A stretch of DNA of 64,000 nucleotides from a virus. The DNA lies in IMG/VR virus record IMGVR_UViG_3300033143_006101, positions 62,001-126,000 of that record. The stretch is one strand, 5' to 3'. This document shows, piece after piece, positions 13,371 through 55,319 of this stretch (its first letter is position 1; each line of letters begins with the position of its first letter). Both the position numbers and the translations under genes were made by a program. Under the pieces are notes generated by a model that was not told the origin of the DNA, searched no databases, and worked only from the letters and a program-made list of their open reading frames with translations.

Positions 13371-14150
13371 ATGCTAGAAAAAATATATAGTTTAAAAAAG
13401 GCTGAGGCTCTGTTACGAAGGTATATACTGGCTAATTCTGATATCAATCAAGAAGTAGCCAGTATGCTTCGTCAACTTGCAAGGAATCAAACTCATACTT
13501 GGAAAGCCACAGCGTATAGTCGAGCAGCAGATAGTATATCAAAATGGGAAACTCCTCTTTCTGAAATGGAGAGTTTTAAAGAAATTCCTGGAGTAGGAGA
13601 GGATATAGATCAAGAGATCAGAGAGTATCTCGAGACAGGTAAAATTCAAAAGCTTGAGATATTAAAAAAGGAAGAAGTAAGCCGTAGACCATTCACTGCA
13701 ATGGAAGTCATAGACAAGACAAAAGCTCTGTTTGATATGGCTGATAAAGTTGGCTTGATCTATGAAATTACAGGTTCCATTAGACGAAAAGAAGAACGAG
13801 TCAGAGACTTAGATATTATTATCCTCATTAAGCAGATGAAGCAATGGAATACTATTGTAGATGCTATAGCAGAGGACATACATAGAAAAGGTGAACAAGA
13901 GATTGATTTTGAAATCAATGGGGTAGAAATAAACTTAAGAGCTGTCAATGAAGATGAGCTAAGTGCGGGAGTACTATATTTCACCGGTCCCAGCTCCTAT
14001 AGTATTTGGATGAGACAAATAGCCAAAGAAAAAGGATATAAATTAAATCGTAGAGGACTGTTCGACGCACAAGAAAATCAGATAGCTAAAACAGAAGAAG
14101 ACATCTTTAAGAAACTTGATATCCCTTGGACACCACCAGAGAAGAGGTAA
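13371..14150 (+). CDS. DNA polymerase family X (pol beta-like), altered active site
   Basis: 259 residues. An N-terminal 8-kDa-like region and helix-hairpin-helix (EIPGVGEDIDQEIREYL, about 65-82) precede the nucleotidyltransferase palm: TGSIRRKEE...RDLDII holds the first two catalytic aspartates (D146, D148) and GVLYFTG is the family YFTG motif. The third carboxylate, Asp256 in human pol beta (RIDIR), aligns with Asn188 (EINLR, codon AAC), at exactly 12 residues before the Gly of GVLYFTG. Shorter than bacterial PolX because the PHP domain is absent. Gap-filling repair synthesis would be expected; activity with Asn is doubtful. No clear ribosome site precedes the ATG. Confidence 0.85.
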   Translation: MLEKIYSLKKAEALLRRYILANSDINQEVASMLRQLARNQTHTWKATAYSRAADSISKWETPLSEMESFKEIPGVGEDIDQEIREYLETGKIQKLEILKKEEVSRRPFTAMEVIDKTKALFDMADKVGLIYEITGSIRRKEERVRDLDIIILIKQMKQWNTIVDAIAEDIHRKGEQEIDFEINGVEINLRAVNEDELSAGVLYFTGPSSYSIWMRQIAKEKGYKLNRRGLFDAQENQIAKTEEDIFKKLDIPWTPPEKR

Positions 14151-15953: not shown

Positions 15954-17060
15954 ATGGCACTAGAAGAAAGAATAAAAGAATTAGTTGATTATCTTCATAT
16001 TCAACGAAAGAAGTATTATGAGGGGGAGATAGAAATTTCTGATGAAGAATTTAATGCTTTAGAAGAAGAATTGAGATCTCTAGATTCTGAGAACGAATAT
16101 TTCAAAGAAGTTGGATCTGAACCGGATACGGATAAAATAAAACATTCCTTTCCTATGCGAAGTATCCAAAAAAAGAAATCCCCAGAGAAAGTAACCAGCT
16201 GGCTTAGAAGTAGAATGGGAGATGCTATAGATGTTATAATTCAACCTAAAATAGATGGTGTATCTTTAACAAACCGATATGAGGAAAGAGAGCTTATATA
16301 TAGTGCTACCCGAGGAGATGGGGAATATGGAAAAGAAATTACAGAAGTAATCCAGCTGATAGAAGAAGTTCCTAAAGCAACATATACTATGGATCCAATA
16401 GAAATAAGGGGTGAAGTATATTTAGAAAAAGATGCTGAATATTCAAAGCAAAAGGCTCAAGAAGGTAAAGAATCACTTAGAAATATAGCGGCTGGAATAC
16501 TAAATAGAAAGCAAAATATTGAGGATGCGGTGCATCTTAACTTTGTAGCATATGATATAATAGGAGTGCCCTTTCCCAGTGAATTAGATAAATTAGAATA
16601 TTTACAAGCAATAGTACCTAATCCAATAATATATCAGAGAGCCCAGAGTGTAGAAGAAGTTGCTGCATTATGGGAACAATATAATGAAGAACGAGAGATT
16701 CTCGCTTATGAAATAGACGGGATTGTTATAAAGATAAATGATGGTAAACTAAGAGAGCAATATCAAGGAACTAATCCTCATCATTGGGGATATGAAATAT
16801 CCTGGAAATTTGAAGCAAGAAAAGAGGTTACAACACTAACAGATATCATATGGACAATTGGGGCAAAAGGCAACGAATCTCCTGTAGCCATATTCGAACC
16901 AGTTAGTATTAGTGGCAGAAATATAGAAAAAGCCACGTTACATAACCAAAAAAGAATAAATGAATTACAGCTGGAAATTGGCGATATTATAGAAGTAGGC
17001 TTGGCCGGGGATGTTATACCTAAAGTATATTCTAATCTCAGCAAAAACATAACTATTTAA
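15954..17060 (+). CDS. ligA: NAD+-dependent DNA ligase, short form
   Basis: 368 residues. Domain order: Ia NAD-binding helices (YYEGEIEISDEEFNALE), adenylation domain with KIDG nucleophile motif (Lys99), RGDGEYG, IRGEVYL and DGIVIK motifs, then an OB-fold (about 295-360, with GNESPVAIFEPV and AGDVIPKV). The zinc finger, HhH and BRCT domains of the roughly 670-residue bacterial LigA are missing, comparable to split or short phage enzymes such as that of T5. Seals nicks using NAD+. A second, ATP-dependent ligase is encoded at 54099. Confidence 0.9.
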   Translation: MALEERIKELVDYLHIQRKKYYEGEIEISDEEFNALEEELRSLDSENEYFKEVGSEPDTDKIKHSFPMRSIQKKKSPEKVTSWLRSRMGDAIDVIIQPKIDGVSLTNRYEERELIYSATRGDGEYGKEITEVIQLIEEVPKATYTMDPIEIRGEVYLEKDAEYSKQKAQEGKESLRNIAAGILNRKQNIEDAVHLNFVAYDIIGVPFPSELDKLEYLQAIVPNPIIYQRAQSVEEVAALWEQYNEEREILAYEIDGIVIKINDGKLREQYQGTNPHHWGYEISWKFEARKEVTTLTDIIWTIGAKGNESPVAIFEPVSISGRNIEKATLHNQKRINELQLEIGDIIEVGLAGDVIPKVYSNLSKNITI

Positions 17061-23684: not shown

Positions 23685-24392
23685 TCATAATTGTTTTCCT
23701 AATTCTTCTACTTTTTCTTTTATGTTATCAGCTTTATAAATAGCACTTCCCACTATAGCATGCCATCTATCACCAGCAGCTTTACCAGCTTCAGTTATAT
23801 CACCACCTTGAGTAATGAGACCTGGGGAATAATAAGTAACTGGTCCAATACTTTCACTATTAGGCTCTTCTACTTCTATTACATTTTCTCTGTAATGTTT
23901 TATCCTATCGGGTTTATTTCCAGGTAATACAAAATCTGTTACACCCATAAGCATTGCGGTTTTATACATCTCATCTGGAGCGGTTTCTTTAATGTAAGAA
24001 AAAAATCCATCATGTGTCATTTCTCCACCAACAATAACATGAAGTCCATTACTCACACAGGCCCTAATCCATGATGTTTGAGTTTGTATACCAGCAAAAG
24101 GAAATAGTATAACAGCATCTACACCAGCATCTTTACAAACTTTTGCAAACTTTTCTCCCATAGCTGGAATATCATTGCCCGCTTTCTGGTGGTCGTATAT
24201 AATAGGTTTATTTGTAACTTTTCTAATAAATTCAGTAATAATTGCTAATCCATAAAACAAAGCAAGATTTAAACCTATTTTATACCCCCCAATTACTTCT
24301 AAACCACAAGTTGCTTTTACTATGTTTTCTAATTCTCCTAAAGTTGGTACATCACAAGCTACAATAATACTTTTGTTTCTTTTAATTAACAT
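23685..24392 (-). CDS. pyrF: Orotidine 5'-phosphate decarboxylase
   Basis: 235 residues, a full-length TIM-barrel enzyme. Converts OMP to UMP, the last step of de novo pyrimidine synthesis. Seen: N-terminal strand with VACDVP (substrate Asp), GYKIGLN (Lys), catalytic DHQKAGNDIP (D67, K70, D74; the spacing variant found in an archaeal-like OMPDC branch), and a C-terminal phosphate-binding GDRWHAIVGSAIY (Arg and Gly). Starts 1 nt after pyrD; AAGGAG leader. Encoding this in a phage with pyrE and pyrD adjacent points to UMP production during infection. Confidence 0.88.
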   Translation of the reverse strand: MLIKRNKSIIVACDVPTLGELENIVKATCGLEVIGGYKIGLNLALFYGLAIITEFIRKVTNKPIIYDHQKAGNDIPAMGEKFAKVCKDAGVDAVILFPFAGIQTQTSWIRACVSNGLHVIVGGEMTHDGFFSYIKETAPDEMYKTAMLMGVTDFVLPGNKPDRIKHYRENVIEVEEPNSESIGPVTYYSPGLITQGGDITEAGKAAGDRWHAIVGSAIYKADNIKEKVEELGKQL

Positions 24393-24393
24393 T

Positions 24394-25158
24394 TTAATTC
24401 TCCTTTAATAATTTTTTTACAAATAATGGTCTGGTAAATAAAATGGAACCTAAAGCTATTTCTGTTACCCCCATTTCTTCTAATCTATGAACATCATCTA
24501 AACAAGTTATAGAAGAACCGGCTACACTAATCCCTTCTTTTTTTAATTCTTCTATATGACTAGCTATAAAATGCCAATTATATTTTTTAGCCCATTTACC
24601 TGATATAGCACCTATATTTATAAATCCTGTAGCTATTGAAGCTGGTACTGAATTAAGTGTTATTCTTTTTACTGATGTATTCCATTCTAATGTACTATTA
24701 GCTGCAAATAGATATGGATCCATCATCCAACTTAACTTTAAAGATAAAGGGAAAGGTGAATCTGGAATCCTTTTATTCTCGTGAGATATGATATTAGGAC
24801 AAGATAAATTAAGTTCTACCATAGGAAAATTAAAACCATATTTGTGCATAGTTGATATCATTGTTCTAAGTTCACTGTCATTTCCAGCTAAAGATGGAAT
24901 GAGTCTTTGTTTAATTTCTCTATCAAGTCCTAAATATTTCTGACACCACCAATGGAATCCATTATTGTGTAATCCTATTTTATTCCACATAGATTTTGCA
25001 AAAGGTATAGGAAAAAAATTATATGGTTTACCTCTTTTTGGTTTATAAGTAATTGTCTTAGCAACAAAAGGAAGTTCAGGAAAACCACTTATTAATTTAT
25101 GCCACCAGTAACCCTCTCCATAAAAACCCATTGTTGCTGAACTGTAAAAATATTTCAT
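24394..25158 (-). CDS. pyrD: Dihydroorotate dehydrogenase-like protein
   Basis: 254 residues, shorter than typical DHODH (about 300-340). Matches to the family: FVAKTITYKPKRGKP (FMN-binding strand with Lys34), NKIGLHNNG (substrate/FMN loop), ELNLSCPN (115-122, signature), LSLKLS with a second Lys (141), TLNSVP, GAISGKWA (the GGLSG-type motif) and SITCLDDVHRLEEMGV-EIALGSIL (FMN phosphate site). It would oxidise dihydroorotate to orotate. The reduced length comes from shortened loops, so reduced or altered activity is possible. Between pyrE and pyrF. Confidence 0.82.
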   Translation of the reverse strand: MKYFYSSATMGFYGEGYWWHKLISGFPELPFVAKTITYKPKRGKPYNFFPIPFAKSMWNKIGLHNNGFHWWCQKYLGLDREIKQRLIPSLAGNDSELRTMISTMHKYGFNFPMVELNLSCPNIISHENKRIPDSPFPLSLKLSWMMDPYLFAANSTLEWNTSVKRITLNSVPASIATGFINIGAISGKWAKKYNWHFIASHIEELKKEGISVAGSSITCLDDVHRLEEMGVTEIALGSILFTRPLFVKKLLKEN

Positions 25159-25172
25159 TTATTTCTCCTTAT

Positions 25173-25790
25173 TTAACAATTATATGTTGTAAAATAATCA
25201 GCAGTAAAGATACTTGTAACCATAGATGGATATTCACCATCTGGTTTTCCTTTAAGTAATGCATTTTCGATATTTAATTTACCATCGAATTCTTGTCTAT
25301 CAATAAGCACTATACAATGTATAGGTTCAAGACCGGCTTCTATCATTTTCTCTATCGCTGTAACTGTAGAACCACCTGTAGTGATAACATCTTCTACAAC
25401 TATAACCTTATCACCTTTTTCATAATTACCTTCTATCCATGCCTGTGTCCCATGACCTTTAGGTTTCTTACGAACTATAATGGGATTGAACCCTGTTTCT
25501 TTTACTACAGATAAAGCTAACGGATAAGCACCTGTTTCAATACCACCAATAGAATAATAATTTCCACCTACTACTATATTACCAGCTACTCTTTCTATAT
25601 ATTCTTTTTCAATAAACAAATCAAACAATACATTTCCTATACAACCATATCCTACAGGATCAAGCATAGTAGGTTTACAGTTAAAATATAATGGACTTTC
25701 TTTACCTGACTTTAATTTAAACGGTTCGTCAGGTCGATACAAAAAACTTTTCTCATAAAGTATTTTAAGTAACATGTCTTTACTATTCAT
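25173..25790 (-). CDS. pyrE: Orotate phosphoribosyltransferase
   Basis: 205 residues. Adds ribose-5-phosphate from PRPP to orotate, giving OMP. The PRPP motif VIVVEDVITTGGS (129-141) and the flexible catalytic loop RKKPKGHGT (about 107-115) are intact; FKLKSGKESPLYFN matches the N-terminal substrate region. First gene of a three-gene pyr cluster; 14-nt gap to pyrD, AAGGAG leader. Length is normal for the family, so likely active. Confidence 0.9.
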   Translation of the reverse strand: MNSKDMLLKILYEKSFLYRPDEPFKLKSGKESPLYFNCKPTMLDPVGYGCIGNVLFDLFIEKEYIERVAGNIVVGGNYYSIGGIETGAYPLALSVVKETGFNPIIVRKKPKGHGTQAWIEGNYEKGDKVIVVEDVITTGGSTVTAIEKMIEAGLEPIHCIVLIDRQEFDGKLNIENALLKGKPDGEYPSMVTSIFTADYFTTYNC

Positions 25791-25814
25791 TTTTAATCTC
25801 CTTAAATTTATTTA

Positions 25815-31758: not shown

Positions 31759-32295
31759 AAAAAGGGATATGATAAAAAAAATCCGGATGTAGATTGTTTT
31801 GTAACAGCTCATTGGATTGATCCTAAAAACAAAAAAGTAGGTTTTCCAGCAATAGCTTTTAAAAAATCTTTTGTAATAGCAGCCCGTAATATTTTCGGTC
31901 CTAAAAGTAAAATGAAAACAGCTTTAGATAATGCTATTTTTGTAGTACCAACAGCAAGCCGAGGTCTTATCCCTGTAGATTATAAAAAATACAGCAATAG
32001 TATAGAACTCGGTAATCTTGGTGGACAGAAAAATAAACTATGCCCTTTCTATAGAGCAAAGTTTTCTGATTGGAACTGTAAAGTATTAGTTGTATTCGAT
32101 GAAGATGTAATCTCGTCTCGTCAATTAGTAAAAGCCGTATTAAAAGCAGGAATCTTTGGTGGTATCGGTGCATGGAGAGCAGCAAAATCAGGAACTTACG
32201 GAACCTATACAATAACAAAAATAGGCAGTCAGAGAGTAAGAGAATTGGTTAAATATACCATATCAAAAATAGATTGGGCACAATATATAATTTAA
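31759..32295 (+). pseudogene. C-terminal part of the interrupted phage protein
   Basis: In frame with the upstream gene after a single TAA. Encodes VGFPAIAFKKSFVIAARNIFG, then YRAKFSDWNCKVLVVFDE and GIFGGIGAWRAAKSGTYG, an order I recognise from a widespread phage protein of unknown function (FPAxAFKKA ... AG...VGxGEWRP...G). If translated alone, the first ATG in frame is 31912 (127 residues), with no ribosome site. An alternative entry is ATG 31751 behind AAGGAGG plus a -1 shift on A_AAA_AAA at 31774-31780. Confidence 0.55.
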
Positions 32296-32304
32296 CATAT
32301 AAAT

Positions 32305-32570
32305 GGATTGAACCTTAAGCGGTTTTCTTGATTCACTATCAGGCAATCCGAATTAGATAAAAGATTAGATTAGCTTAGCCAAGAATAGACCAGAGCAGAA
32401 AAGACAAGACGAGTCGGGCAGAATCTACAGCGATTATTAAGGTTCATTACCTTACTGCCCAAATTAGATAAAAGACTAGAATAGATCAGACTAGAATAGC
32501 AAAGAGCAGACTAGATTAGAACAGGAGCAGAACCTATAAGAGGTTATTGAGATTCACTATCTCACTACTC
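32305..32570 (+). ncRNA. Three tandem three-way-junction RNA elements
   Basis: Three elements, 32305-32349, 32416-32460 and 32525-32570, at a period of 109-111 nt. Each folds the same way: a 6-bp closing stem (GGATTG/CAATCC; GGGCAG/CTGCCC; GAGCAG/CTACTC with one mismatch), hairpin A with stem AAYC/GRTT, then a 2-nt joint, then hairpin B of 5 bp with a fixed 7-nt loop TTCAYTA (stems CTTGA, TAAGG, TGAGA). All three stems change sequence while keeping pairing. Spacers are purine-rich and start AATTAGATAAAAGA. No coding frame spans it. Function unknown. Confidence 0.65.
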
Positions 32571-32648
32571 AAATTAAATTCCTCCTTCCCAACCCCAGCT
32601 TGCTCTTAGCTCACATGTGGACCCATAGCTACTTTTATAAGAATGTAC

Positions 32649-32675
32649 TTGACAATTAGTACATATATATATAAT
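32649..32675 (+). promoter_or_regulatory. Sigma70-like promoter
   Basis: TTGACA and TATAAT with 15-bp spacing (slightly short). The -10 box ends 8 bp before the ATG at 32684, so the transcript would be almost leaderless. Confidence 0.65.
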
Positions 32676-32683
32676 AGTCATTT

Positions 32684-32815
32684 ATGGATAAATTTGATTT
32701 CGATAGAAGAAACAATAACCTCAAGTTAGCAAACAAAATAATGGACTACCTGGAAGATTGCCACATATCTGAATGGGAAGAAGGATTCTTAGAAGATATA
32801 CAACAACAACTCTAG
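32684..32815 (+). CDS. Small phage protein interrupted by TAG, 43 residues
   Basis: Acidic helical protein (MDYLEDCHISEWEEGFLEDI) of a style common in phages, whose usual C-terminal part is 'LT-x-x-Q-x-x-x-L-x-x-I'. Here that part (FTLSDAQKDKLDTILDK) follows in the same frame after TAG (32813-32815) and ends at TAA 32878. No ribosome site is present because the promoter is so close. Confidence 0.5.
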   Translation: MDKFDFDRRNNNLKLANKIMDYLEDCHISEWEEGFLEDIQQQL

Positions 32816-32901
32816 TTCCCCTTCTTTACACTATCCGACGCTCAGAAAGATAAACTAGACACTATCCTGGATAAATAACCTTCACTCACCTCGTATGGTA
32901 T

Positions 32902-33054
32902 TTACATATCCTCAAATAAACGCTCCCACATCTCCCACTCCTCATCATCTATCTCCGGAATACCTTCAAAGAACATGTCTATTAGTAACTCCTCACAATC
33001 ATCCCAATCCAATACCTCACGCCTCCTGAAAAACTTCCTCAACCTCTCAAACAT
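32902..33054 (-). CDS. Small acidic protein, 50 residues
   Basis: ATG at 33054 with TAGGAGGTAGTGAT leader. Basic start (ERLRKFFRRR) then a very acidic helix (EIDDEEWEMWERLFEDM). Isolated minus-strand gene; convergent with the 32684 gene. Unknown. Confidence 0.5.
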   Translation of the reverse strand: MFERLRKFFRRREVLDWDDCEELLIDMFFEGIPEIDDEEWEMWERLFEDM

Positions 33055-33226
33055 ATCACTACCTCCTATCAGTCTTACTCTATATAAACGTAAAACTACC
33101 CCAAACCATGAACCAAAATAAACCCTCAACCTACCCCCAACTTGCCCCTGGCTCACTCCTAACTCGCGTATTACCCCCTCTCACTCCTAATTCACTCCTA
33201 ACTCGCGTGTGAACCGGTGTAATTAA

Positions 33227-33240
33227 CTATGGATCCATAG
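33227..33240. repeat. GGATCC-centred palindrome, copy 2
   Basis: CTATGGATCCATAG inside a perfect 20-bp palindrome TAACTATGGATCCATAGTTA (33224-33243). Confidence 0.85.
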
Positions 33241-33368
33241 TTACTTTATAAAATTATTAATTCTATTTCCAGCAAAAAATTAGTCTCACAGACAAGAGAG
33301 GCTGGGTACCCACCCGTCACCACCGGTGGTCAGATGTTGAAAGGGGTACATTATAGACCACCCTCAAT

Positions 33369-33473
33369 AATTGACCATCATCAAAAGTTGACCGGACTAC
33401 AATTGACCATCATCAAAAGTTGACTAGGCAATGACTGACCACACGGGATTATGTCCCCTGTCAAAAGTTGACC
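33369..33473. repeat. 24-bp direct repeats
   Basis: AATTGACCATCATCAAAAGT + TGAC occurs at 33369-33392 and 33401-33424; a shortened copy TCAAAAGTTGACC is at 33461-33473. Spacing 32 and 60 bp. Iteron-like. Confidence 0.75.
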
Positions 33474-33507
33474 TACTCAAATTTTTATGGAATAAAAGCC
33501 CAAAACT

Positions 33508-33751
33508 GTCAGTTTTTCGGAATTCCCAATACTCGGTGCAAGCTCGTCACAGGGATGGATGTCCTAGAGTTTGAGTCTGGTAAAGCAGTAATACCAGCAT
33601 AGACAGATATAGCTAATCATTAGACATATCTGTCTATGCTGGTGTTGGACTGAACAGATTTCCGGCTTTTGTCGGTTTTTCGGAATTTCCAATACTTGCA
33701 TCCAGTCAGTCTGGTTTGATAGATTGACTGCCTTATTGAGGATGGATGTCC
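33508..33751. repeat. Duplicated TTTTTCGGAATT module
   Basis: A 26-bp segment (GTCRGTTTTTCGGAATTYCC plus AATACT) at 33508-33533 recurs at 33671-33696; each is followed by an identical GGATGGATGTCC (33553-33564 and 33740-33751). The second copy has a longer insert with its own stem. Confidence 0.7.
33593..33643. other. 18-bp perfect hairpin
   Basis: 33593-33610 pairs without mismatch with 33626-33643 around a 15-nt loop that is itself partly palindromic (CTAATCATTAG). No T-run, so not a normal terminator. Confidence 0.8.
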
Positions 33752-34059
33752 AACAGGTAAGGTATAATAGCCCGATCTTGAAAGAGATCATAGCTGTTCT
33801 ATATGCGGGGTGAAAAGGTGCGAGAATTATGAACCGCACTATAGACTAATGATAGAGACATAGTTCTCTGTGGATTAAGACTTTCACTAACTATATATAG
33901 ACGAAGGTATGCGTCCACAAAGCCAACCTCCGGCTGAGGACTATAAACTATAGGGGGTGGGGTGATTAAGTTCACTTAAACGCCCCTCCTTTTCCCTGCC
34001 CATCCACCATGCATGTATTATGGTAGGGTGGTCAGAGATTGACCCCTTTGGAGGTTGTA

Positions 34060-34425
34060 ATGAGAAACAATTATTACAAGGAGTTTTTACAGGCTAACGG
34101 TTTGCTTTCTAAGTTTAATACTTGGAAGACAGAGCAGGTAGCAAAGAATCGGTATGACAAGATCAAGGATCAGGTTAAGTTTTATCATCTTGATTTTGAT
34201 CTGGAGAACGCATCTGTTGTGATCACTTTTGATCGTGCAGATCAGTATCCGACCGGAGATCATATTTGTTATAAAGATAACAATTGGTCTTTTGGTAGCA
34301 AGTCAACTGCTCAATCTATGAGTAAGGTTAAGACTGCTCATGGTGATTGCTATCCTATGCAAGATGCACTCCGCAAGTTGAAGTTCTTGCCTGTAGATAC
34401 AACTCACAAAGAATACCGTAGATAG
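34060..34425 (+). CDS. Hypothetical protein, 121 residues
   Basis: ATG at 34060 with GGAGGTTGTA leader; an upstream TTG is ignored. Tyr/Lys-rich, mixed fold with YHLDFDLENASVVITFDRAD. First of the long + strand small-gene block. Unknown. Confidence 0.55.
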   Translation: MRNNYYKEFLQANGLLSKFNTWKTEQVAKNRYDKIKDQVKFYHLDFDLENASVVITFDRADQYPTGDHICYKDNNWSFGSKSTAQSMSKVKTAHGDCYPMQDALRKLKFLPVDTTHKEYRR

Positions 34426-34437
34426 TTTAAGTGCATG

Positions 34438-34459
34438 GTGACCAAGTGAACTTGGTCAC
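34438..34459 (+). other. Intergenic hairpin
   Basis: GTGACCAAG / CTTGGTCAC with loop TGAA between the 34060 and 34489 genes. First of the one-per-gap hairpins described in the findings. Confidence 0.7.
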
Positions 34460-34488
34460 TGGCGTACCTAAATTTATGGAGGTTTAAC

Positions 34489-34650
34489 ATGAGAAACACA
34501 TTAGTTATAGGACACGATGAGAAGCATCATAAGGCTAACAAGTTTGGTCGTTGTAAGTCTAAGTGTATACCTAGTACATGCTTAGAATATAACAAGTGCC
34601 AGACAGAATTAAACAAGCCTATGGTTCGCAAGATACTTGGACTTGCGTAG
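34489..34650 (+). CDS. Small basic Cys-containing protein, 53 residues
   Basis: GGAGGTTTAAC leader. Lys/His-rich with CKSKC, C and C; possible metal-binding. Unknown. Confidence 0.5.
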   Translation: MRNTLVIGHDEKHHKANKFGRCKSKCIPSTCLEYNKCQTELNKPMVRKILGLA

Positions 34651-34697
34651 TTACAGGATAGACTAAGTTAACTTGGTCTATCCCGTAATTAAATTAA

Positions 34698-34711
34698 CTA
34701 TGGATCCATAG
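34698..34711. repeat. GGATCC-centred palindrome, copy 3
   Basis: Part of a perfect 22-bp palindrome (34694-34715) in the gap after the 34489 gene. Confidence 0.85.
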
Positions 34712-34835
34712 TTAAACTTATGGGTTCTGGAGGAAAGTATGAAGCTAACATAGATAAACTCTTGGCGATCATTACATGAGATAATGTATCATGGTGCAAG
34801 TCGTCAAGAGCTTATACATTATGTCAGGAGGTATT

Positions 34836-34925
34836 ATGAACGGTAGGATTAGTGATGAAAGACTCCATGCTTATGTTCTTAAAGCATGGAGTAAGATGAA
34901 GAGAGGTTATAAGAAGTCCCGTTAA
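34836..34925 (+). CDS. Small basic protein, 29 residues
   Basis: CAGGAGGTATT leader. Short, Lys/Arg-rich helix (YVLKAWSKMKRGYKKSR). Supported only by its leader and spacing. Confidence 0.4.
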   Translation: MNGRISDERLHAYVLKAWSKMKRGYKKSR

Positions 34926-34978
34926 TGGGATTTCTTATGAGCTTTTAGCTCATAATCTAATTTAGGAGGTGTTAACAC

Positions 34979-35146
34979 ATGTTAACATTAGAGATATTGC
35001 AAAAGAATCTTTTCTCAAAGGCAAAGACATTTAAGACTGGTTCAAAGGGTCACTATGTACACGGCAAGGTCGTGGACAAAGACGGCACTGTGTTTCAGAT
35101 GAATGCCAATGTCGTACAGATTGGTTCTAAACCGCAACCTAAATAA
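34979..35146 (+). CDS. Small basic protein, 55 residues
   Basis: AGGAGGTGTTAACAC leader. Helix then beta hairpin (GHYVHGKVVDKDGTVFQ). Unknown. Confidence 0.5.
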   Translation: MLTLEILQKNLFSKAKTFKTGSKGHYVHGKVVDKDGTVFQMNANVVQIGSKPQPK

Positions 35147-35217
35147 TTAACTGCTGTTGCTTAGGCAGCTTGACTTGTCCTAAGCAACCAGGAGTTAACT
35201 AACTCAGGAGGTTAGAG

Positions 35218-35427
35218 ATGAAAGACCAGATACTAAATGAAGTAGCATATGGTGTCGCTAAGTATGTTAAAGACAGACGAGCAGCAAGAGATCATCGTCA
35301 TCCTCTTGCCGGTTCTATTGTAGAACCTAGCCTCATTCCTCGTCGTACATATGCTCCACTCAATTCCATTGGCAACATCATCAAAGCCAAAGGACAGACC
35401 ATTGGAGTAAAGGTAGACACAGAGTAA
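35218..35427 (+). CDS. Small basic protein, 69 residues
   Basis: AGGAGGTTAGAG leader. Helical N-terminus with RRAARDHRH, Pro-rich middle. Unknown. Confidence 0.5.
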   Translation: MKDQILNEVAYGVAKYVKDRRAARDHRHPLAGSIVEPSLIPRRTYAPLNSIGNIIKAKGQTIGVKVDTE

Positions 35428-35453
35428 TTCCTTTAGCTTAGCTATGGGTTTAA

Positions 35454-35467
35454 CTATGGATCCATAG
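35454..35467. repeat. GGATCC-centred palindrome, copy 4
   Basis: CTATGGATCCATAG forming one arm region of a larger stem (CTTAGCTATGG / CCATAGCTAAG, 35437-35471). Confidence 0.8.
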
Positions 35468-35500
35468 CTAAGTCTAAGCACTTATTTAATAGGAGGTAAC

Positions 35501-35629
35501 ATGAAAACAAGAGTGTATTGTCACAAAACTCATGGATGGAAATCTGTTGACCAACTTGGGAATATCACTGATGCTCTCAATAAAAACAGGATGACTATCT
35601 CATGTAAACGGACAACTCATGTTAAGTAA
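35501..35629 (+). CDS. Small basic protein, 42 residues
   Basis: AGGAGGTAAC leader. Basic, two Cys. Overlaps the next gene by 11 nt in another frame. Unknown. Confidence 0.45.
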   Translation: MKTRVYCHKTHGWKSVDQLGNITDALNKNRMTISCKRTTHVK

Positions 35630-35747
35630 AGAAGAACGTAAGAGACTACAGAATGCCATGAGGTATATCGACATGGCCAACGAGATAACAGATAATCTCG
35701 TGAAATCTGCAAGTAAAACCTACAAAGATTATGTCACCCGCAAGTAA
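35619..35747 (+). CDS. Small helical protein, 42 residues
   Basis: ATG inside the 3' end of the previous gene, no strong own ribosome site, so probably coupled. Charged helix (KEERKRLQNAMRYIDMANEI). Unknown. Confidence 0.45.
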   Translation: MLSKEERKRLQNAMRYIDMANEITDNLVKSASKTYKDYVTRK

Positions 35748-35752
35748 TTTAA

Positions 35753-35784
35753 CTATGGATCCATAGATAACTATGGATCCATAG
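35753..35784. repeat. Tandem pair of GGATCC palindromes, copies 5 and 6
   Basis: CTATGGATCCATAG at 35753-35766 and 35771-35784, separated by ATAA. The only place where two copies are adjacent. Confidence 0.85.
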
Positions 35785-35804
35785 TAAAAATTAAAGGAGG
35801 TTAT

Positions 35805-35939
35805 ATGGACGGTAATTATGTCAGCATCAATCGTAGTGTAGTAACATGTAAGAAGCAGAAAGGTGAGAGAACAGCTATAGTACACAGGGGAGCATGTAAA
35901 CAGTGTCCCTTTCATCAAGACATAAGATGTCCAAACTAA
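35805..35939 (+). CDS. Small Cys-rich protein, 44 residues
   Basis: AAAGGAGGTTAT leader. CKQCPFH and CP with an earlier Cys suggest a small zinc or Fe-S site. Unknown. Confidence 0.5.
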   Translation: MDGNYVSINRSVVTCKKQKGERTAIVHRGACKQCPFHQDIRCPN

Positions 35940-36077
35940 ATGTTATTCGATAGGATTATGACAGAACAAAACAAAAACCACAAAACAGATTATGATAGGT
36001 TAGTACGACTGTTAGAATCTATGGGAATGAGTACAGAACAAGCAAAACTCACCTCAAAAGACAGACTCAAACAATAA
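35940..36077 (+). CDS. Small protein, 45 residues
   Basis: Starts directly at the base after the upstream stop (TAAATG), without own ribosome site. Helical with Gln/Lys. Unknown. Confidence 0.4.
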   Translation: MLFDRIMTEQNKNHKTDYDRLVRLLESMGMSTEQAKLTSKDRLKQ

Positions 36078-36146
36078 GGCATTATGTTATAGTTAACTGA
36101 TATCCTATAGTCAGGATATCAGCTTACTTTAAACCAGGAGGTACTT

Positions 36147-36659
36147 ATGAGTAATGCAACAGTAGTAAACGATTCAGTTAAGGAAGCTATGGGCAAGCTC
36201 CTCAAAGAGTTAGCATCAGTTGAGGAGAAACTTATAGGTAAAACCAGTAAGTATGATGCAAAGATCAATGTTCTGAAGGCTAAGAAGGTGAAGGAAACTA
36301 AGTCTCTGGTTGAAGAACTTGTTGGTATGCAGAAACATTTACTGGAACTTGCTGAATCATATGAGTTCGATGGTGATACTAAGACAGTAAGGTATGAGAT
36401 TGGTGATGTGTTTGCCAAGAAACTACCTGATACCTTGTTGATTCCTGATGTGGATGATACTATTGAGAAACTGGAAGAGCATGACTTCGATGATTGTATT
36501 AAGAAGGTTAAGACAATCGTTCGTAAGGCAGTAGAGAATCTGTCTGATGAAGATCAAGAAGAGTGTGGTATCTCAATTAACCCAGGTAAAGACAGGTATT
36601 ATTACAAAATCAACAGACTCAAAACCTCAACTGGACTCGTATTCCCTAAATCTGAGTAA
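36147..36659 (+). CDS. Coiled-coil protein, possibly Gam-like
   Basis: 170 residues, CAGGAGGTACTT leader. Long N-terminal coiled coil (about 10-75, LKELASVEEKLIGKTSKYDA) followed by TVRYEIGDVF and a mixed C-terminal region ending in a Tyr-rich strand. Length and coiled-coil-then-beta layout recall Mu Gam-type DNA-end-binding nuclease inhibitors, but no signature residue proves it. Confidence 0.45.
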   Translation: MSNATVVNDSVKEAMGKLLKELASVEEKLIGKTSKYDAKINVLKAKKVKETKSLVEELVGMQKHLLELAESYEFDGDTKTVRYEIGDVFAKKLPDTLLIPDVDDTIEKLEEHDFDDCIKKVKTIVRKAVENLSDEDQEECGISINPGKDRYYYKINRLKTSTGLVFPKSE

Positions 36660-37004
36660 CACTGGAAGACTCCTTAGCAATAAGCCTAGGGAGTCTGTCA
36701 GTACTACGCAGATAGCTAGTACTACTATAAACCTCCCGCTGCCATCCCACATGTCCTAAATGAGAATTAACTATGGATCCATACTTGGACCACAGGAATA
36801 GTTAATCATGTGGGATGCGGGTGAGATGTTTCTAGTTATACGCATAGATATTAGTAATTTCACACATCATTACCCAAGTGTCTACCCAGCGATAGCCAAC
36901 ACCTTGTCCTACGTCCCATTGACTATATATGGCAAGTTGGGGCGTGGCTTGGGTGTGATTGGTGAGGTTATTGTCTGCCTCAAATTCTATACAGGAGGTA
37001 TTGC
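36660..37004. other. 345-bp gap with a long imperfect hairpin
   Basis: Arms 36735-36774 and 36798-36821 pair in three blocks: CCCG/CGGG, CATCCCACATG/CATGTGGGATG and ATTAACTAT/ATAGTTAAT. The apex carries GGATCC (imperfect palindrome copy). A frame at 36808-37017 lacks a ribosome site and is not accepted as a gene. Confidence 0.6.
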
Positions 37005-37202
37005 ATGTCAGTTATAACAATTAAGTTTGAGGATCTCACTGAGAAGAAACAACAGGAGATACTAGAGGCTTATGAAATCGTGGATTACAAAGAAGTATTC
37101 CCATACGTACTGACTGAAATCTATGTCGAAGAGAATATAGACCTTATTACATCCTGTGAGGTTAAGCTACCGCCTTGTACACTATGTTCCTGTACAAAAT
37201 AA
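37005..37202 (+). CDS. Small acidic protein, 65 residues
   Basis: CAGGAGGTATTGC leader. Begins ITIKFEDLTEKKQQEILEAY, a pattern common in short phage proteins; three Cys at the C-terminus (CTLCSC). Unknown. Confidence 0.55.
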   Translation: MSVITIKFEDLTEKKQQEILEAYEIVDYKEVFPYVLTEIYVEENIDLITSCEVKLPPCTLCSCTK

Positions 37203-37207
37203 TTATG

Positions 37208-37243
37208 TGGGAGAAGGCTGAGCGTAGTTTCAGCCTTCTCCCA
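37208..37243 (+). terminator. 14-bp hairpin after 37005 gene
   Basis: TGGGAGAAGGCTGA / TCAGCCTTCTCCCA with loop GCGTAGTT. No T-run follows, so pausing or RNA stabilising is as likely as termination. Confidence 0.6.
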
Positions 37244-37303
37244 TAACACCGGACTACACTTGAGTAACACCGGACTACACTTGAGTAACACCGGACTACA
37301 CTG
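37244..37303. repeat. 21-bp tandem repeat, three copies
   Basis: TAACACCGGACTACACTTGAG at 37244 and 37265, and a third copy from 37286 diverging after CTACACT. Begins right after the hairpin; no gene covers it. Confidence 0.85.
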
Positions 37304-37416
37304 GAATGTGTATTTAAGGGCTAATTTGGGCATGATATGTGTTACGGTTTGTGTAATGTGGTGTAATACGTGTCACGAATTGGATAATCGTGTTAAAGAG
37401 AGGATGTGTAATACAA

Positions 37417-37510
37417 AAAGAACACAAAGGCATACAATTTATATAAAGGTGACATAATTTGTCCCTTACTACAGAAAGAACACAAAGGCATACAATTGTG
37501 TTCTTTTATT
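37417..37510. repeat. Direct repeat with hairpin at second copy
   Basis: AAAGAACACAAAGGCATACA + ATT at 37417-37439 and 37475-37497. Only the second copy is followed by GTGTTCTTT, which pairs with AAAGAACAC to form a terminator-like hairpin plus T-run. The 37203-37545 gap otherwise has no gene. Confidence 0.75.
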
Positions 37511-37545
37511 GTAGACATATGGGAGAGGTTATGATAGGAGGTAGT

Positions 37546-37785
37546 ATGAAGATACCATTTAGTAAGATACATATTACATTTATACATATTGAATTAGTTC
37601 CTGACAAGTATTACATCAAGCCTATCAAGAAGCAGTTGAAGAAGTTAATGGCTGCAGGTCACAAGATACAGGCTATTAAAGTGTTACGTGATTTCAGTAA
37701 AGAGAATGGTCATCAACTAACATTGAGGGAATGCAAAGATTTTGTTGAGGATACCTTTCCATATCCTGAGACTGTTTATGTGTAG
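37546..37785 (+). CDS. Ribosomal protein L7/L12 C-terminal-domain-like protein
   Basis: 79 residues from the ATG at 37546 (AGGAGGTAGT). The stretch LMAAGHKIQAIKVLRDFSKE, then LTLRECKDFVE, follows the bL12 C-terminal pattern (G-x-KI-x-AIK-x-x-R ... L-x-EAK-x-VE) that binds translation factors. The L10-binding N-terminal domain is absent. An interaction with host translation factors is inferred from similarity only. Confidence 0.55.
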   Translation: MKIPFSKIHITFIHIELVPDKYYIKPIKKQLKKLMAAGHKIQAIKVLRDFSKENGHQLTLRECKDFVEDTFPYPETVYV

Positions 37786-37849
37786 ATGAGTTTAAGTATT
37801 CTCGGGTAAGTTCCTTGTGGAACTTATCGGAGAGTAATTAAGGAGTCGC

Positions 37850-38074
37850 ATGAAGTATAGAGTATATTTATCGGAGACTACACATCAAAGTGTTATCGTT
37901 GAGGCAGACAGTGGTAAGGAAGCTGAGACTAAGGCACATGAGTGTATGTTTGAAGATGGTTTTAATTGGGATGGTAGAATGGAAACCAAGATACATGGTA
38001 ATGATGTTGTAGGTGAGCATGAGAATCTTGAACACTGTTTTGATTATATTAGTGAAGAGTTATGTGATGGCTGA
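37850..38074 (+). CDS. Small acidic protein, 74 residues
   Basis: AAGGAGTCGC leader. KYRVYLSETTHQSVIVEADS, then a helix with AETKAHE, matches a common short phage fold (beta-beta-alpha; similar in the 49366 product). Unknown. Confidence 0.55.
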   Translation: MKYRVYLSETTHQSVIVEADSGKEAETKAHECMFEDGFNWDGRMETKIHGNDVVGEHENLEHCFDYISEELCDG

Positions 38075-38228
38075 GATACTTATATTTGTGCTTGTTGTGA
38101 TAGCAATAGCCTGGACTATATTTGAGGTAAGGATAGAGCGTCATTGTACTGGGTGTATTCATTATTATAAATGGAGTAACCCTTGTATTACGTGCAGGCA
38201 TCATTATAATCCTAAGGATAGGTCTTAG
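38067..38228 (+). CDS. Single-pass membrane protein with Cys pairs, 53 residues
   Basis: Starts inside the previous 3' end (8-nt overlap). One N-terminal membrane segment (ILIFVLVVIAIAWTIF), then CTGC and CITC pairs that could bind zinc on the inner face. Confidence 0.5.
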   Translation: MAEILIFVLVVIAIAWTIFEVRIERHCTGCIHYYKWSNPCITCRHHYNPKDRS

Positions 38229-38259
38229 GGCTTATCCTTAGATTTATAAGGAGGTAAGT

Positions 38260-38502
38260 ATGACAAAAGCAGTAGCTGAAACATTTACAACTAAAGACCT
38301 AACAAAAGCAGTTAAGGCAGCTCTTGTTGAGTGCAAAAATCCTTATGCCCAGACATATCTCAGGGCTATTCCATTATCAGCATTGGAGTATGGGAAGGAA
38401 GGAATACAAGTACAACTTTTGTATTGCCTTTCCAACATGCAGACATGGAGAGGAGAAACTGCAAGACAGTGTAAGAAAGTAATGAAATACTTTAGTAAGT
38501 AA
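38260..38502 (+). CDS. Hypothetical protein, 80 residues
   Basis: AAGGAGGTAAGT leader. Helical, basic; C-terminus with QVQLLYCLSNMQTWRGETAR, a pattern seen in short phage proteins. Unknown. Confidence 0.55.
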   Translation: MTKAVAETFTTKDLTKAVKAALVECKNPYAQTYLRAIPLSALEYGKEGIQVQLLYCLSNMQTWRGETARQCKKVMKYFSK

Positions 38503-38562
38503 TAATGTTATACCTTGTCTTATGTAGAGACAGGGTATAAATTATTAAAATTGGAGGTAAGT

Positions 38563-38928
38563 ATGAGAGTAATTAAGTTTCATCCTGGTGCTAACAAGAA
38601 GTATCAAGAAGCAAAGGAGAAGATAGCTGAGGTGGAGAAAGAACATCCTGAAATAGCTGAGAAGATGCTACTATCTTTTTATCAGATATGGGACAGGATG
38701 CTTACCATGCTTTTTAACGGTAATATTCCAAAGGATAAGTATGGTGAAGAGGAGAAGGATTACGAGTTACATATTGCAAGTGATTTTGTAGTTGGATCCT
38801 TTTCATTTGTTTATATGTATGATGAGAAGAGGGATTTCAATGGAGGAATAATACTTCATGGATTTGGTGAGACCTTTTCTGTTGAGTTGACTGCTCCTAG
38901 TCATCCACACTGGAGTATTCATACGTAG
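38563..38928 (+). CDS. Hypothetical protein, 121 residues
   Basis: ATG at 38563 with GGAGGTAAGT leader (an in-frame ATG at 38515 is upstream of the ribosome site). Helical first half, C-terminal beta half with HGFGETFSVEL. Unknown. Confidence 0.55.
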   Translation: MRVIKFHPGANKKYQEAKEKIAEVEKEHPEIAEKMLLSFYQIWDRMLTMLFNGNIPKDKYGEEEKDYELHIASDFVVGSFSFVYMYDEKRDFNGGIILHGFGETFSVELTAPSHPHWSIHT

Positions 38929-38980
38929 GATTATTAGCTCCCTGATAAGGGAGCTAGTAACTTTATGTTAGGAGGTTTAG

Positions 38981-39154
38981 ATGGCTAAGAAAACAAGCAG
39001 GCGTAAGACTAGAGTAACACATAAGCATATTGGTATGTGTCCTAGATGTAAGAAGACTAAGGAGTTACATACTTTACGTGCGATGAAGGTCACTGGTTGT
39101 GCTGAATGTCTTTCTATATTTTTAGATGTGCTTGAGGAGGATCCATTACGATGA
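38981..39154 (+). CDS. Zinc-ribbon protein, 57 residues
   Basis: TAGGAGGTTTAG leader. Basic N-terminus, then CPRC and CAEC pairs 25 residues apart. Coupled by ATGA to the next frame. Confidence 0.55.
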   Translation: MAKKTSRRKTRVTHKHIGMCPRCKKTKELHTLRAMKVTGCAECLSIFLDVLEEDPLR

Positions 39155-39365
39155 AGAAATTGATTAAGAGTAAGAAGGATATAGATCGGTACATTCAATC
39201 TGAATACGTTGATGATCTAGAATGGTCTACAATGGGGATACTTTATGTGAGACTGAACCAACAGAGTATCCTTGTGTGCTGGTTGATGAGACGCAAGTAG
39301 ATTATGAAAATTATGAATTGAATGTTAAGTTTAATTTTGTATATCCATCAGATTTTGTAGATTGA
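39151..39365 (+). pseudogene. Apparent frameshifted small gene
   Basis: Frame 1 runs from ATG 39151 to TAG 39300 (49 residues). Its start (KKLIKSKKDIDRYIQSEY, VDDLEW) looks genuine, but its end is odd. A -1 frame from about 39222 to TGA 39365 gives acidic, codon-typical sequence (LCETEPTEYPCVLVDETQV) with no ribosome site of its own. The likely original product joins both near 39222. Confidence 0.45.
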
Positions 39366-39445
39366 AGCCTGCTAATTGGTAGGCTTGAGTTTATTGAGTA
39401 AGCTGAGAGGTGTCAAACCCTAAACAGTATTGGAGGTAGTTATGA
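39358..39445 (+). repeat. Duplicated intergenic module, copy A
   Basis: 88 bp from the preceding stop through hairpin and ribosome site to the next start; copy B at 53669-53757 differs at two bases and one indel. Confidence 0.9.
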
Positions 39446-39696
39446 CAGAGGTAATGGAGAAGATTGACTTCCCTTCTAACTTTAATGCAAATAACTATAA
39501 GCTTATTGCTACTGTGAAAACAGAGAAGGATGGCGGATATAGTAATGGGCAATTAAGATACAGTAAGGACAGGAATAAGTATGATGTAAAAGATGTTCCT
39601 TTATCTAGTGGACTTTATACTAATGGGTCATACTTATACAGAGTGATTGGTGAGTATAGTGAATTTTCCATTTATGTTTTTGAAAAGCAAGTATAA
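39442..39696 (+). CDS. Hypothetical protein, 84 residues
   Basis: ATG at 39442 with GGAGGTAGTT leader inside the duplicated module. Tyr/Ser-rich beta sequence with YKLIATVKTEKDGGYSNG. Unknown. Confidence 0.5.
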   Translation: MTEVMEKIDFPSNFNANNYKLIATVKTEKDGGYSNGQLRYSKDRNKYDVKDVPLSSGLYTNGSYLYRVIGEYSEFSIYVFEKQV

Positions 39697-39755
39697 TATA
39701 TCACCAGTAAGTTATATGTTTTCTGACATACTGGTGATATTATTAAGGAGGTACT

Positions 39756-39890
39756 ATGAAGATTGCGAGTATAATAAATAGTGTAAGTCAAGTAACATCT
39801 GATGCTGTTGATGTGTTATCACATCCAGCCAAGTGTGTAAAACATGAGGTTAAAAAGGCGTATGCTTTTTATAAGATAATAAGTTCATAG
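39756..39890 (+). CDS. Small helical protein, 44 residues
   Basis: AAGGAGGTACT leader. SIINSVSQVTSDAVDVLSHP, then a basic helix; amphipathic. Unknown. Confidence 0.45.
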   Translation: MKIASIINSVSQVTSDAVDVLSHPAKCVKHEVKKAYAFYKIISS

Positions 39891-39925
39891 TATTACACCT
39901 GAGGTGACTCACCTCAGGTGTAATA
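39891..39925 (+). other. 16-bp perfect intergenic hairpin
   Basis: TATTACACCTGAGGTG / CACCTCAGGTGTAATA with a 3-nt loop, followed by TTATTTAACTGGAGG. Begins at the base after the stop codon. Confidence 0.8.
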
Positions 39926-39945
39926 TTATTTAACTGGAGGTAACA

Positions 39946-40194
39946 ATGAGTACACAAATCAATGTTATAGTATTTGATAGAGATCAAGATACTATTATCG
40001 AAAACATTCTTGTGTTAGCACAAGGGGCTGATGACGCTGAACAAATCTTTTTAGATAAGTGTAGTGTTTACTTTACTAATTGGGATGAGTACACCGATGC
40101 AGACAAGGAGGCTATTTTAGATAATGGGTTTGAACAAAATTCCCACAAAATAGTATTCATTGGTTGGCCTGATGTTATAGACAAACGTAACTAA
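39946..40194 (+). CDS. Small acidic protein, 82 residues
   Basis: TGGAGGTAACA leader. INVIVFDRDQDTIIENILVLAQ, then an acidic helix, beta-beta-alpha style. Unknown phage family. Confidence 0.5.
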   Translation: MSTQINVIVFDRDQDTIIENILVLAQGADDAEQIFLDKCSVYFTNWDEYTDADKEAILDNGFEQNSHKIVFIGWPDVIDKRN

Positions 40195-54098: not shown

Positions 54099-55319
54099 AT
54101 GCAAGAAATTTACATGGAAAAAACTAGCGAGACTGGTGCAAAACTATTCTATGAGTATAAGATAGAAGAAAGCACTGTAAAATTTCGCTGGGGGCAGATT
54201 GGCAGTGACAACATTCAGTCTGATGAACGAACCTTTACAGAAGGTAAGAACATTGGTAAGAAGAATGAGAAGAGTCCGGAACAATGTTGTATAGAAGATA
54301 CGGCGAGAAGGGCTCGGAAGAAACATGAGCAGGGTTATGAAATTATCAAGGGTGAAGGATTTGTTATAGCTAACACAGGTAAAACTGTAAAGGCTACAGA
54401 TCTGAGTGTACCTAAACCCATGAAAGCTCAGACTCTTAAAGACCATTGGAAGAAAATGGATGGAGTTGACGAAGTATACTTCCAACCTAAGCTCGATGGT
54501 AATCGTGGTCTAATCAATATACGAACTGGAAAGATGTATTCCAGTGGTAGAAAAGAGATGACACATTTGCCTGAGATAGTTGAACAAGTAGTAAAAGCTT
54601 GTGAGCCTATCAAAGATGAAGTTGAATGGGTAGACGGTGAATTGTATTCACCCAAGCTTGTATTCAATGACCTTCAGTCTGTACTCAGTACATGGAAGAA
54701 CACTGAGAAAGAAGGACTTGCAGAATTACGGAAAGAAGTAAAGTTCTATTTGTTTGATGTCATATCAGACAAGCCTTTTAGTGAAAGGTTAGAGTTTATT
54801 AAAAAGCTCGAGTCAAATGATAAACTACAAATAGTAAAGACTATTGTAGGTCATCCACACGAAGCAATAGGTAGTCAGGATGACTTCATAGAACTACCTG
54901 AAGGAGTTGTTAGTCTTCATGATGTATTCATTGAAGAAGGTTATGAAGGTATTATGATTCGTACTGTCAAAACTTTAGTACGGAAGGACTGGGTAGATAA
55001 ACCATACGAATCCAAACGCTCTATGCAAATCTTCAAACACAAACTGTTTGATGATGAAGAGTTTGAAGTTATTGGTTTTGAGCCCGAAGAACATGACCCT
55101 ACAAAATTAGGGGCAGGAGTATTGAGGATGAAGAATGATGACACATTCCCTGCCAGACCTGCAATGACTGACGATTATAAAGCAGAGATATGGGCTAATC
55201 AAGATAAGTTTATTGGTCGATTAGCTACTATAAAATTTCAAGGTAAGTTTGCAGACACAGGCAAACCGAGGTTCCCCAGGTTAACCAAGTTCAGATTACC
55301 TGAGGATATTACTGAATAG
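54099..55319 (+). CDS. ATP-dependent DNA ligase with N-terminal WGR domain
   Basis: 406 residues, AGGAGGAACAC leader. Residues 1-90 are a WGR domain (KLFYEYKIEESTVKFRWGQI, GSDN). The nucleotidyltransferase domain follows: motif I KLDGNRG (Lys131), EWVDGELY, KFYLFDVIS, and EGIMIRT with IFKHKLFDDEEFEVIG as motifs IV/V, then a short OB-fold ending LTKFRLPEDI. The WGR module, known from PARPs, binds nucleic acid, so damaged or nicked ends may be targeted. The phage also encodes an NAD+-dependent ligase (15954). Confidence 0.88.
   Translation: MQEIYMEKTSETGAKLFYEYKIEESTVKFRWGQIGSDNIQSDERTFTEGKNIGKKNEKSPEQCCIEDTARRARKKHEQGYEIIKGEGFVIANTGKTVKATDLSVPKPMKAQTLKDHWKKMDGVDEVYFQPKLDGNRGLINIRTGKMYSSGRKEMTHLPEIVEQVVKACEPIKDEVEWVDGELYSPKLVFNDLQSVLSTWKNTEKEGLAELRKEVKFYLFDVISDKPFSERLEFIKKLESNDKLQIVKTIVGHPHEAIGSQDDFIELPEGVVSLHDVFIEEGYEGIMIRTVKTLVRKDWVDKPYESKRSMQIFKHKLFDDEEFEVIGFEPEEHDPTKLGAGVLRMKNDDTFPARPAMTDDYKAEIWANQDKFIGRLATIKFQGKFADTGKPRFPRLTKFRLPEDITE

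Follow-up and report, generated by a model that had tools for sequence, protein, structure and literature searches.

A contiguous pyrE-pyrD-pyrF trio, probably a late UMP pathway module of mixed ancestry, in a jumbo myophage

Single pyr genes are already known in phages, as are pyrimidine genes in huge phages generally: many of the latter have genes for purine and pyrimidine synthesis that are similar to those of very small bacteria (Al-Shayeb et al. 2020, PMC7162821), in a paper whose main text does not mention orotate. PyrE has been reported as viral-enriched (PMC4022391) and is often found in cyanophages (PMC9983427); one scan in the present work gave at least 539 viral loci. Viral pyrD and pyrF have also been reported (PMC13288924). 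A literature search, to which subscription journals contributed little, found no published description of a contiguous phage set of all three genes.

The DNA analyzed here (the window) is a stretch of 64,000 nucleotides taken from a virus record of 252,876 bp (bases 62001-126000), and all gene coordinates are window positions. An earlier note, made from the letters of the window alone, had described three minus-strand genes as a pyrE-pyrD-pyrF cluster, and the ORFs do lie head-to-tail in that order at the positions given there, with gaps of 14 nt (25159-25172) and 1 nt (24393); each gene has its own AAGGAG ribosome-binding site (Table 1). The pyrF site is located within pyrD, at its 3' end, which suggests one transcript and coupled translation. 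The motifs quoted for the three genes (the PRPP motif, ELNLSCPN plus FMN motifs, and DHQKAGNDIP) were found in the three ORFs, and profiles, conserved residues, and predicted folds all back the assignments to PyrE, PyrD, and PyrF. PyrF matched Pfam PF00215 at 2.1e-14 and 54.4 bits (cut-off 27), PyrD matched PF01180 at 7.2e-8 and 32.4 bits (cut-off 27), and PyrE matched PF00156 at 5.4e-10 and 39.3 bits (cut-off 26.3). The NCBIfam equivalog cut-offs were missed by all three, at 99.2 of 106.8 bits for PyrE, 77 of 208 for PyrF, and 42 of 269 for PyrD. Because the Pfam cut-offs were passed but the equivalog scores were too low, the trio consists of divergent members of the right families; on its score, PyrD is classed as a divergent DHODH-family protein and not as an equivalog. 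Each family match is nevertheless far past chance, and three successive pathway enzymes encoded side by side is not a chance arrangement.

Table 1. Positions of the three genes and their ribosome-binding sites in the window.
Feature	Position	Strand	Length and basis
pyrE, orotate phosphoribosyltransferase, phage-type	25173..25790	-	205 aa; PF00156, TIGR00336, phrog_32468
pyrD, compact class-1-like dihydroorotate dehydrogenase	24394..25158	-	254 aa; PF01180, predicted fold
pyrF, OMP decarboxylase, DHQKAG[NT]D family	23685..24392	-	235 aa; PF00215, predicted fold
AAGGAG ribosome-binding site of pyrE	25798..25803	-	direct reading of sequence
AAGGAG ribosome-binding site of pyrD, within 14-nt gap	25165..25170	-	direct reading of sequence
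AAGGAG ribosome-binding site of pyrF, within pyrD 3' end	24400..24405	-	direct reading of sequence

The record is that of a jumbo myophage. It encodes a tail sheath, baseplate wedge, TerL, DNA polymerase, DnaB helicase, and ribonucleotide reductase, together with RecA and ~25 tRNAs, and the codon use of the trio is as near the window average as is that of other genes; these hallmarks, the reductase, and the phage-like codon use confirm the phage context claimed in the earlier note. In principle the same genes could be host DNA, either a piece of chromosome misjoined to the contig of a phage or a chance capture, and this phage is represented by only one full assembly. However, the trio sits mid-record, within an extended run of small genes on the minus strand, its codon use is as phage-like as that of its neighbors, and its PyrE is of the phage type. 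We thus find such an origin hardly credible, and host contamination as such was ruled out by the phage hallmarks, the codon use, and the position of the trio. Searches with TerL and DNA polymerase revealed no close relatives of the phage except one 4.8-kb fragment, viral contig L217 (4,848 bp, dataset 3300033153), whose TerL is identical over 1015 aa and which is probably the same phage.

Several other features of the record were observed. The standard code fits the window, and recoded stop codons were ruled out; no RNA families were found within its 64 kb. The sign of the GC skew switches twice, near 18 kb and at 30-34 kb. Positions 32000-40000 contain few ORFs, and the repeats there include a TAACTATGGATCCATAGTTA-like palindrome in five copies. 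Genes at 13371-14150, 15954-17060, and 54099-55319 together account for DNA polymerase X-type HhH and thumb domains close to an NAD-dependent DNA ligase and for a second ligase, which is ATP-dependent. Outside the window, the record encodes a tubulin/FtsZ-like protein, PTH2, an outer-membrane-type phospholipase A1, an Apyc1-like anti-Pycsar protein, an RF-1 domain, and cytosine methylases. The phage also has nicotinate phosphoribosyltransferase and NAD synthase, i.e., an NAD salvage pair beside the UMP module.

PyrE matches TIGR00336 at 2.2e-28 and phrog_32468 at 5.3e-24. It retains the R107/K108/K111 loop and the VVVEDVITTGGS PRPP motif, and the residues that are invariant across the PyrE alignment (R107, K108, K111, G114, E133, and D134) are all present. 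For PyrF, the AlphaFold model (pLDDT 93.8) superimposes on the OMP decarboxylase (OMPDC) of M. thermautotrophicus over nearly the whole length, with a TM-score of 0.82-0.88 and an rmsd of ~2.3. Instead of the canonical DxKxxD, its loop reads D-H-Q-K-A-G-N-D (DxxKxxxD), and this spacing is found throughout a subfamily with the loop DHQKAG[NT]D, mainly from DPANN archaea and Patescibacteria, whose members are 42-54% identical to phage PyrF. The catalytic Lys-Asp-Lys-Asp tetrad (K38, D67, K70, and D74) is conserved across this family. At the position of the phosphate-binding R203 the phage protein has Ser (VGSAIY), as do several Patescibacteria homologues. A single PF00215 match was found in 15 of the 20 genomes carrying a PyrF of this type, so that the protein is the likely OMPDC of those cells, and in four DPANN genomes it is fused C-terminally to PyrE. 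From these sequence comparisons, the family is very probably that of a working OMPDC. More distant members are encoded on a small number of other viral contigs, where DNA polymerase, RecA-like, and tail genes are close by; the largest of these contigs gave no PyrE match.

Of the three steps, that of the short PyrD is the least certain. The protein is without several loops and the pair of N-terminal strands that is usual, and it has 254 aa against open frames of ~295-340 aa in its Patescibacteria relatives. Its AlphaFold model has a pLDDT of 82 and a pTM of 0.85, with low confidence for residues 1-20, 121-130, and 151-160, and the top 27 PDB matches of the model are all DHODHs, the best being L. 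lactis PyrDB (1ep3, E 4e-10). K35, N59, N117, C120, N122, K141, and N169 are present; the Cys in SCPN marks the protein as class 1. The FMN-phosphate motif is AGSSI, the canonical GG(V/I) being absent; in the Patescibacteria relatives it is GPSV. Phage and Patescibacteria PyrD share WWC, NSVP, and a shortened motif, G[PS]S[VI], in place of the GGG[VI] of others. The earlier note had suspected that a step was altered in so short a protein. PyrD is indeed shortened and changed, but because the change at the FMN site is also found in full-length Patescibacteria PyrDs, it is not a private loss in the phage. Among the Pfam matches listed for phage-record ORFs of at least 150 aa, none was to a PyrK family, PyrK being the partner of class 1B DHODHs; the scan took in few of the smaller ORFs.

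It might be argued that only PyrE and PyrF act, converting host-made or scavenged orotate to UMP, and that PyrD is degraded or otherwise employed: PyrD is the weakest of the equivalog matches, it has a branch of 2.55 in the PyrD tree in addition to its shortened N-terminus and altered motif, and many phages carry PyrE without PyrD or PyrF. We nevertheless consider a two-enzyme pathway unlikely, because N59, C120, K141, and N169, which are invariant in the DHODH alignment, are all kept, the PyrD frame is open, and a DHODH fold is predicted for it; moreover, the altered motif also occurs in the full-length cellular relatives, and compact PyrDs are widespread among phages.

One check proposed in the earlier note, whether the three genes had been gained together, was run, and a joint gain is disfavored. 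Phage PyrE groups with viral PyrE, cyanophage P-SSM7 and huge-phage proteins included (support 100/91), and did so again when the longest branches were removed and two huge phages added (96/99); its best identity, ~45%, is also to a phage PyrE. PyrD and PyrF resemble Patescibacteria/DPANN proteins. The long PyrD branch joins the Patescibacteria PyrDs (99/97) and also a PyrD of full length from a 390-kb viral record (98/96), apart from the compact PyrDs of marine phages, which form a large clade (100/99); the relationship is backed by the shared WWC, NSVP, and G[PS]S[VI] marks. This kinship with full-length Patescibacteria-type PyrD, apart from the marine clade, makes it seem that compactness arose separately. 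The marine clade as the source of PyrD is disfavored by the tree, though placement of PyrD with that group was not rejected by the AU test (p 0.12), and a single-sequence search revealed no close viral relatives. The PyrF tree gave no firm placement of the phage protein inside the DHQKAG[NT]D family. Patescibacteria were rejected as a general home of the phage-type PyrF, since only 2 of 380 sampled genomes carry it at E <= 1e-20.

The simplest reading of these sequence relationships, and a probable one, is piecewise assembly, with PyrE drawn from the pool of phage pyrE genes and PyrF and PyrD from Patescibacteria/DPANN-type genes; it is no more than probable because, besides the result for PyrD, placement of PyrE in the DPANN/Patescibacteria group also passed the AU test (p 0.09). 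A transfer of all three genes in one piece from a pyr cluster of the Patescibacteria/DPANN type, with PyrE appearing phage-like merely through divergence, would account for the resemblance of both PyrF and PyrD to proteins of those cells, in which pyrF, pyrE, and pyrD can be neighbors (L165, L168, L171, and L175), and for the AU result with PyrE. We think it improbable, however, in view of both PyrE groupings and the identity of PyrE to phage proteins, and because neither pyrE nor pyrF was detected near the three closest PyrD relatives outside L165 (13-18 kb examined). In L165, which is a small-genome bacterial MAG, pyrF (1812-2564) has an in-frame TAG ahead of its last fifth and is adjoined by pyrE and pyrD.

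The trio is real and phage-borne and, on sequence and structural models, probably functional. Our overall reading, to which we assign a probability of about 0.77, is that of an operon-like module for the last three steps to UMP in a jumbo myophage, pieced together and keeping pyrimidines flowing. From the genes and their order, residues, predicted folds, kinship, and context we infer co-transcription, catalysis, flux, and a benefit to the phage, as follows. PyrD, with FMN, would oxidize host-made dihydroorotate to orotate, PyrE would join orotate and PRPP to give OMP, and PyrF would decarboxylate OMP to UMP, which would feed host kinases and the phage ribonucleotide reductase to give DNA precursors. 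The module could thereby sustain pyrimidine flow where the late enzymes of the host are limiting, repressed, or absent. The suggestion that the phage raises the UMP supply has the backing of the profile matches, the conserved residues, the predicted folds, and the phage reductase gene.

ATCase, dihydroorotase, carbamoyl-phosphate synthase, thymidylate synthase, and CTP synthase were not among the Pfam matches listed for the phage record. The scans covered most ORFs of at least 150 aa, except for several very large structural ones, and a minority of those below 150 aa; one listing gives the best 25 of 37 families, the remaining ones being weaker and of one protein each. With pyrB, pyrC, and carAB not seen within that scope, the phage would rely on host dihydroorotate or orotate. 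The usual points of feedback control, carbamoyl-phosphate synthase and ATCase, come before the steps of PyrD, PyrE, and PyrF. The trio would therefore relieve a shortage or repression of late enzymes but not escape allosteric control, and the earlier proposal that it bypasses host UMP feedback is weakly supported. Lactococcus strongly represses its pyr operons within minutes of phage infection (PMC10986495), one example of conditions under which a module of this kind would be of benefit. Pyrimidine starvation of phages by their hosts, an idea raised by that study, becomes directly testable with three small genes, which also offer for study a DHODH of compact size and an OMP decarboxylase with a variant loop.

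The earlier note had called a complete PyrD-E-F set rare in phages; rare it is, but not unique. The following counts come from seventeen records, many of them fragments, that were picked for carrying one of the genes, and are therefore not frequencies. The full set was present in two of the records, this phage and the unrelated marine phage G408; PyrD and PyrE were found in records of 390, 532, and 595 kb, and PyrD and PyrF in a 59-kb record. In the latter (L206), PyrF adjoins a PurC-like ORF and PyrD lies elsewhere on the contig. G408 and its kin (L048-L051 and L053) resemble this phage in having a complete and nearly adjacent dihydroorotate-to-UMP set, in G408 in the order PyrD, a 127-aa ORF, and a PyrF-PyrE fusion ~0.4 kb from PyrD; neighboring genes include PurZ-like, amidase, and GroEL-like ones. 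In L050 (2255-8175), a PurZ-like 2-aminoadenylosuccinate synthetase is near PyrD and the fusion, possibly a modified-base phage that also makes UMP. The G408 set differs from the present one in that its PyrD belongs to the compact marine phage clade, its PyrF is of the canonical DGKLGD type, and its UMP synthase is fused; it was thus assembled independently. Together with the partial sets in other huge phages, this speaks for selection having favored this part of the pathway repeatedly, and a contiguous complete late pathway of mixed ancestry likewise suggests selection on the whole dihydroorotate-to-UMP stretch. More tentatively, phages may have repeatedly and independently built the complete module, here from phage PyrE and from PyrD and PyrF of the Patescibacteria/DPANN type, the decarboxylase having a variant active-site loop and the DHODH being minimal; this would permit growth where the host makes or imports dihydroorotate or orotate yet cannot complete UMP during infection.

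Other known systems share parts of the arrangement. The 595-kb huge phage LR756511 also has PyrD and PyrE, but ~36 kb apart, and no PyrF was found in it. The pyrE genes of cyanophages P-SSM2, P-SSM5, and P-SSM7, and phrog_32468, belong to the same PyrE family (31-42% identity) and retain the PRPP and orotate loops, whereas the cyanophages inspected have pyrE without pyrD or a PyrF match. Class 1 DHODHs, i.e., L. lactis PyrDB and the fumarate-type trypanosomatid enzyme, have the fold, catalytic Cys, FMN Lys, and Asn residues in common with phage PyrD, which is ~50-60 residues shorter, 16-20% identical, and altered in its FMN-phosphate motif. Finally, the DPANN/Patescibacteria OMPDCs with a DHQKAG[NT]DIP loop have the same loop as phage PyrF, and in several Patescibacteria the same VGS variant, but they are cellular and frequently adjoin or are fused to PyrE.
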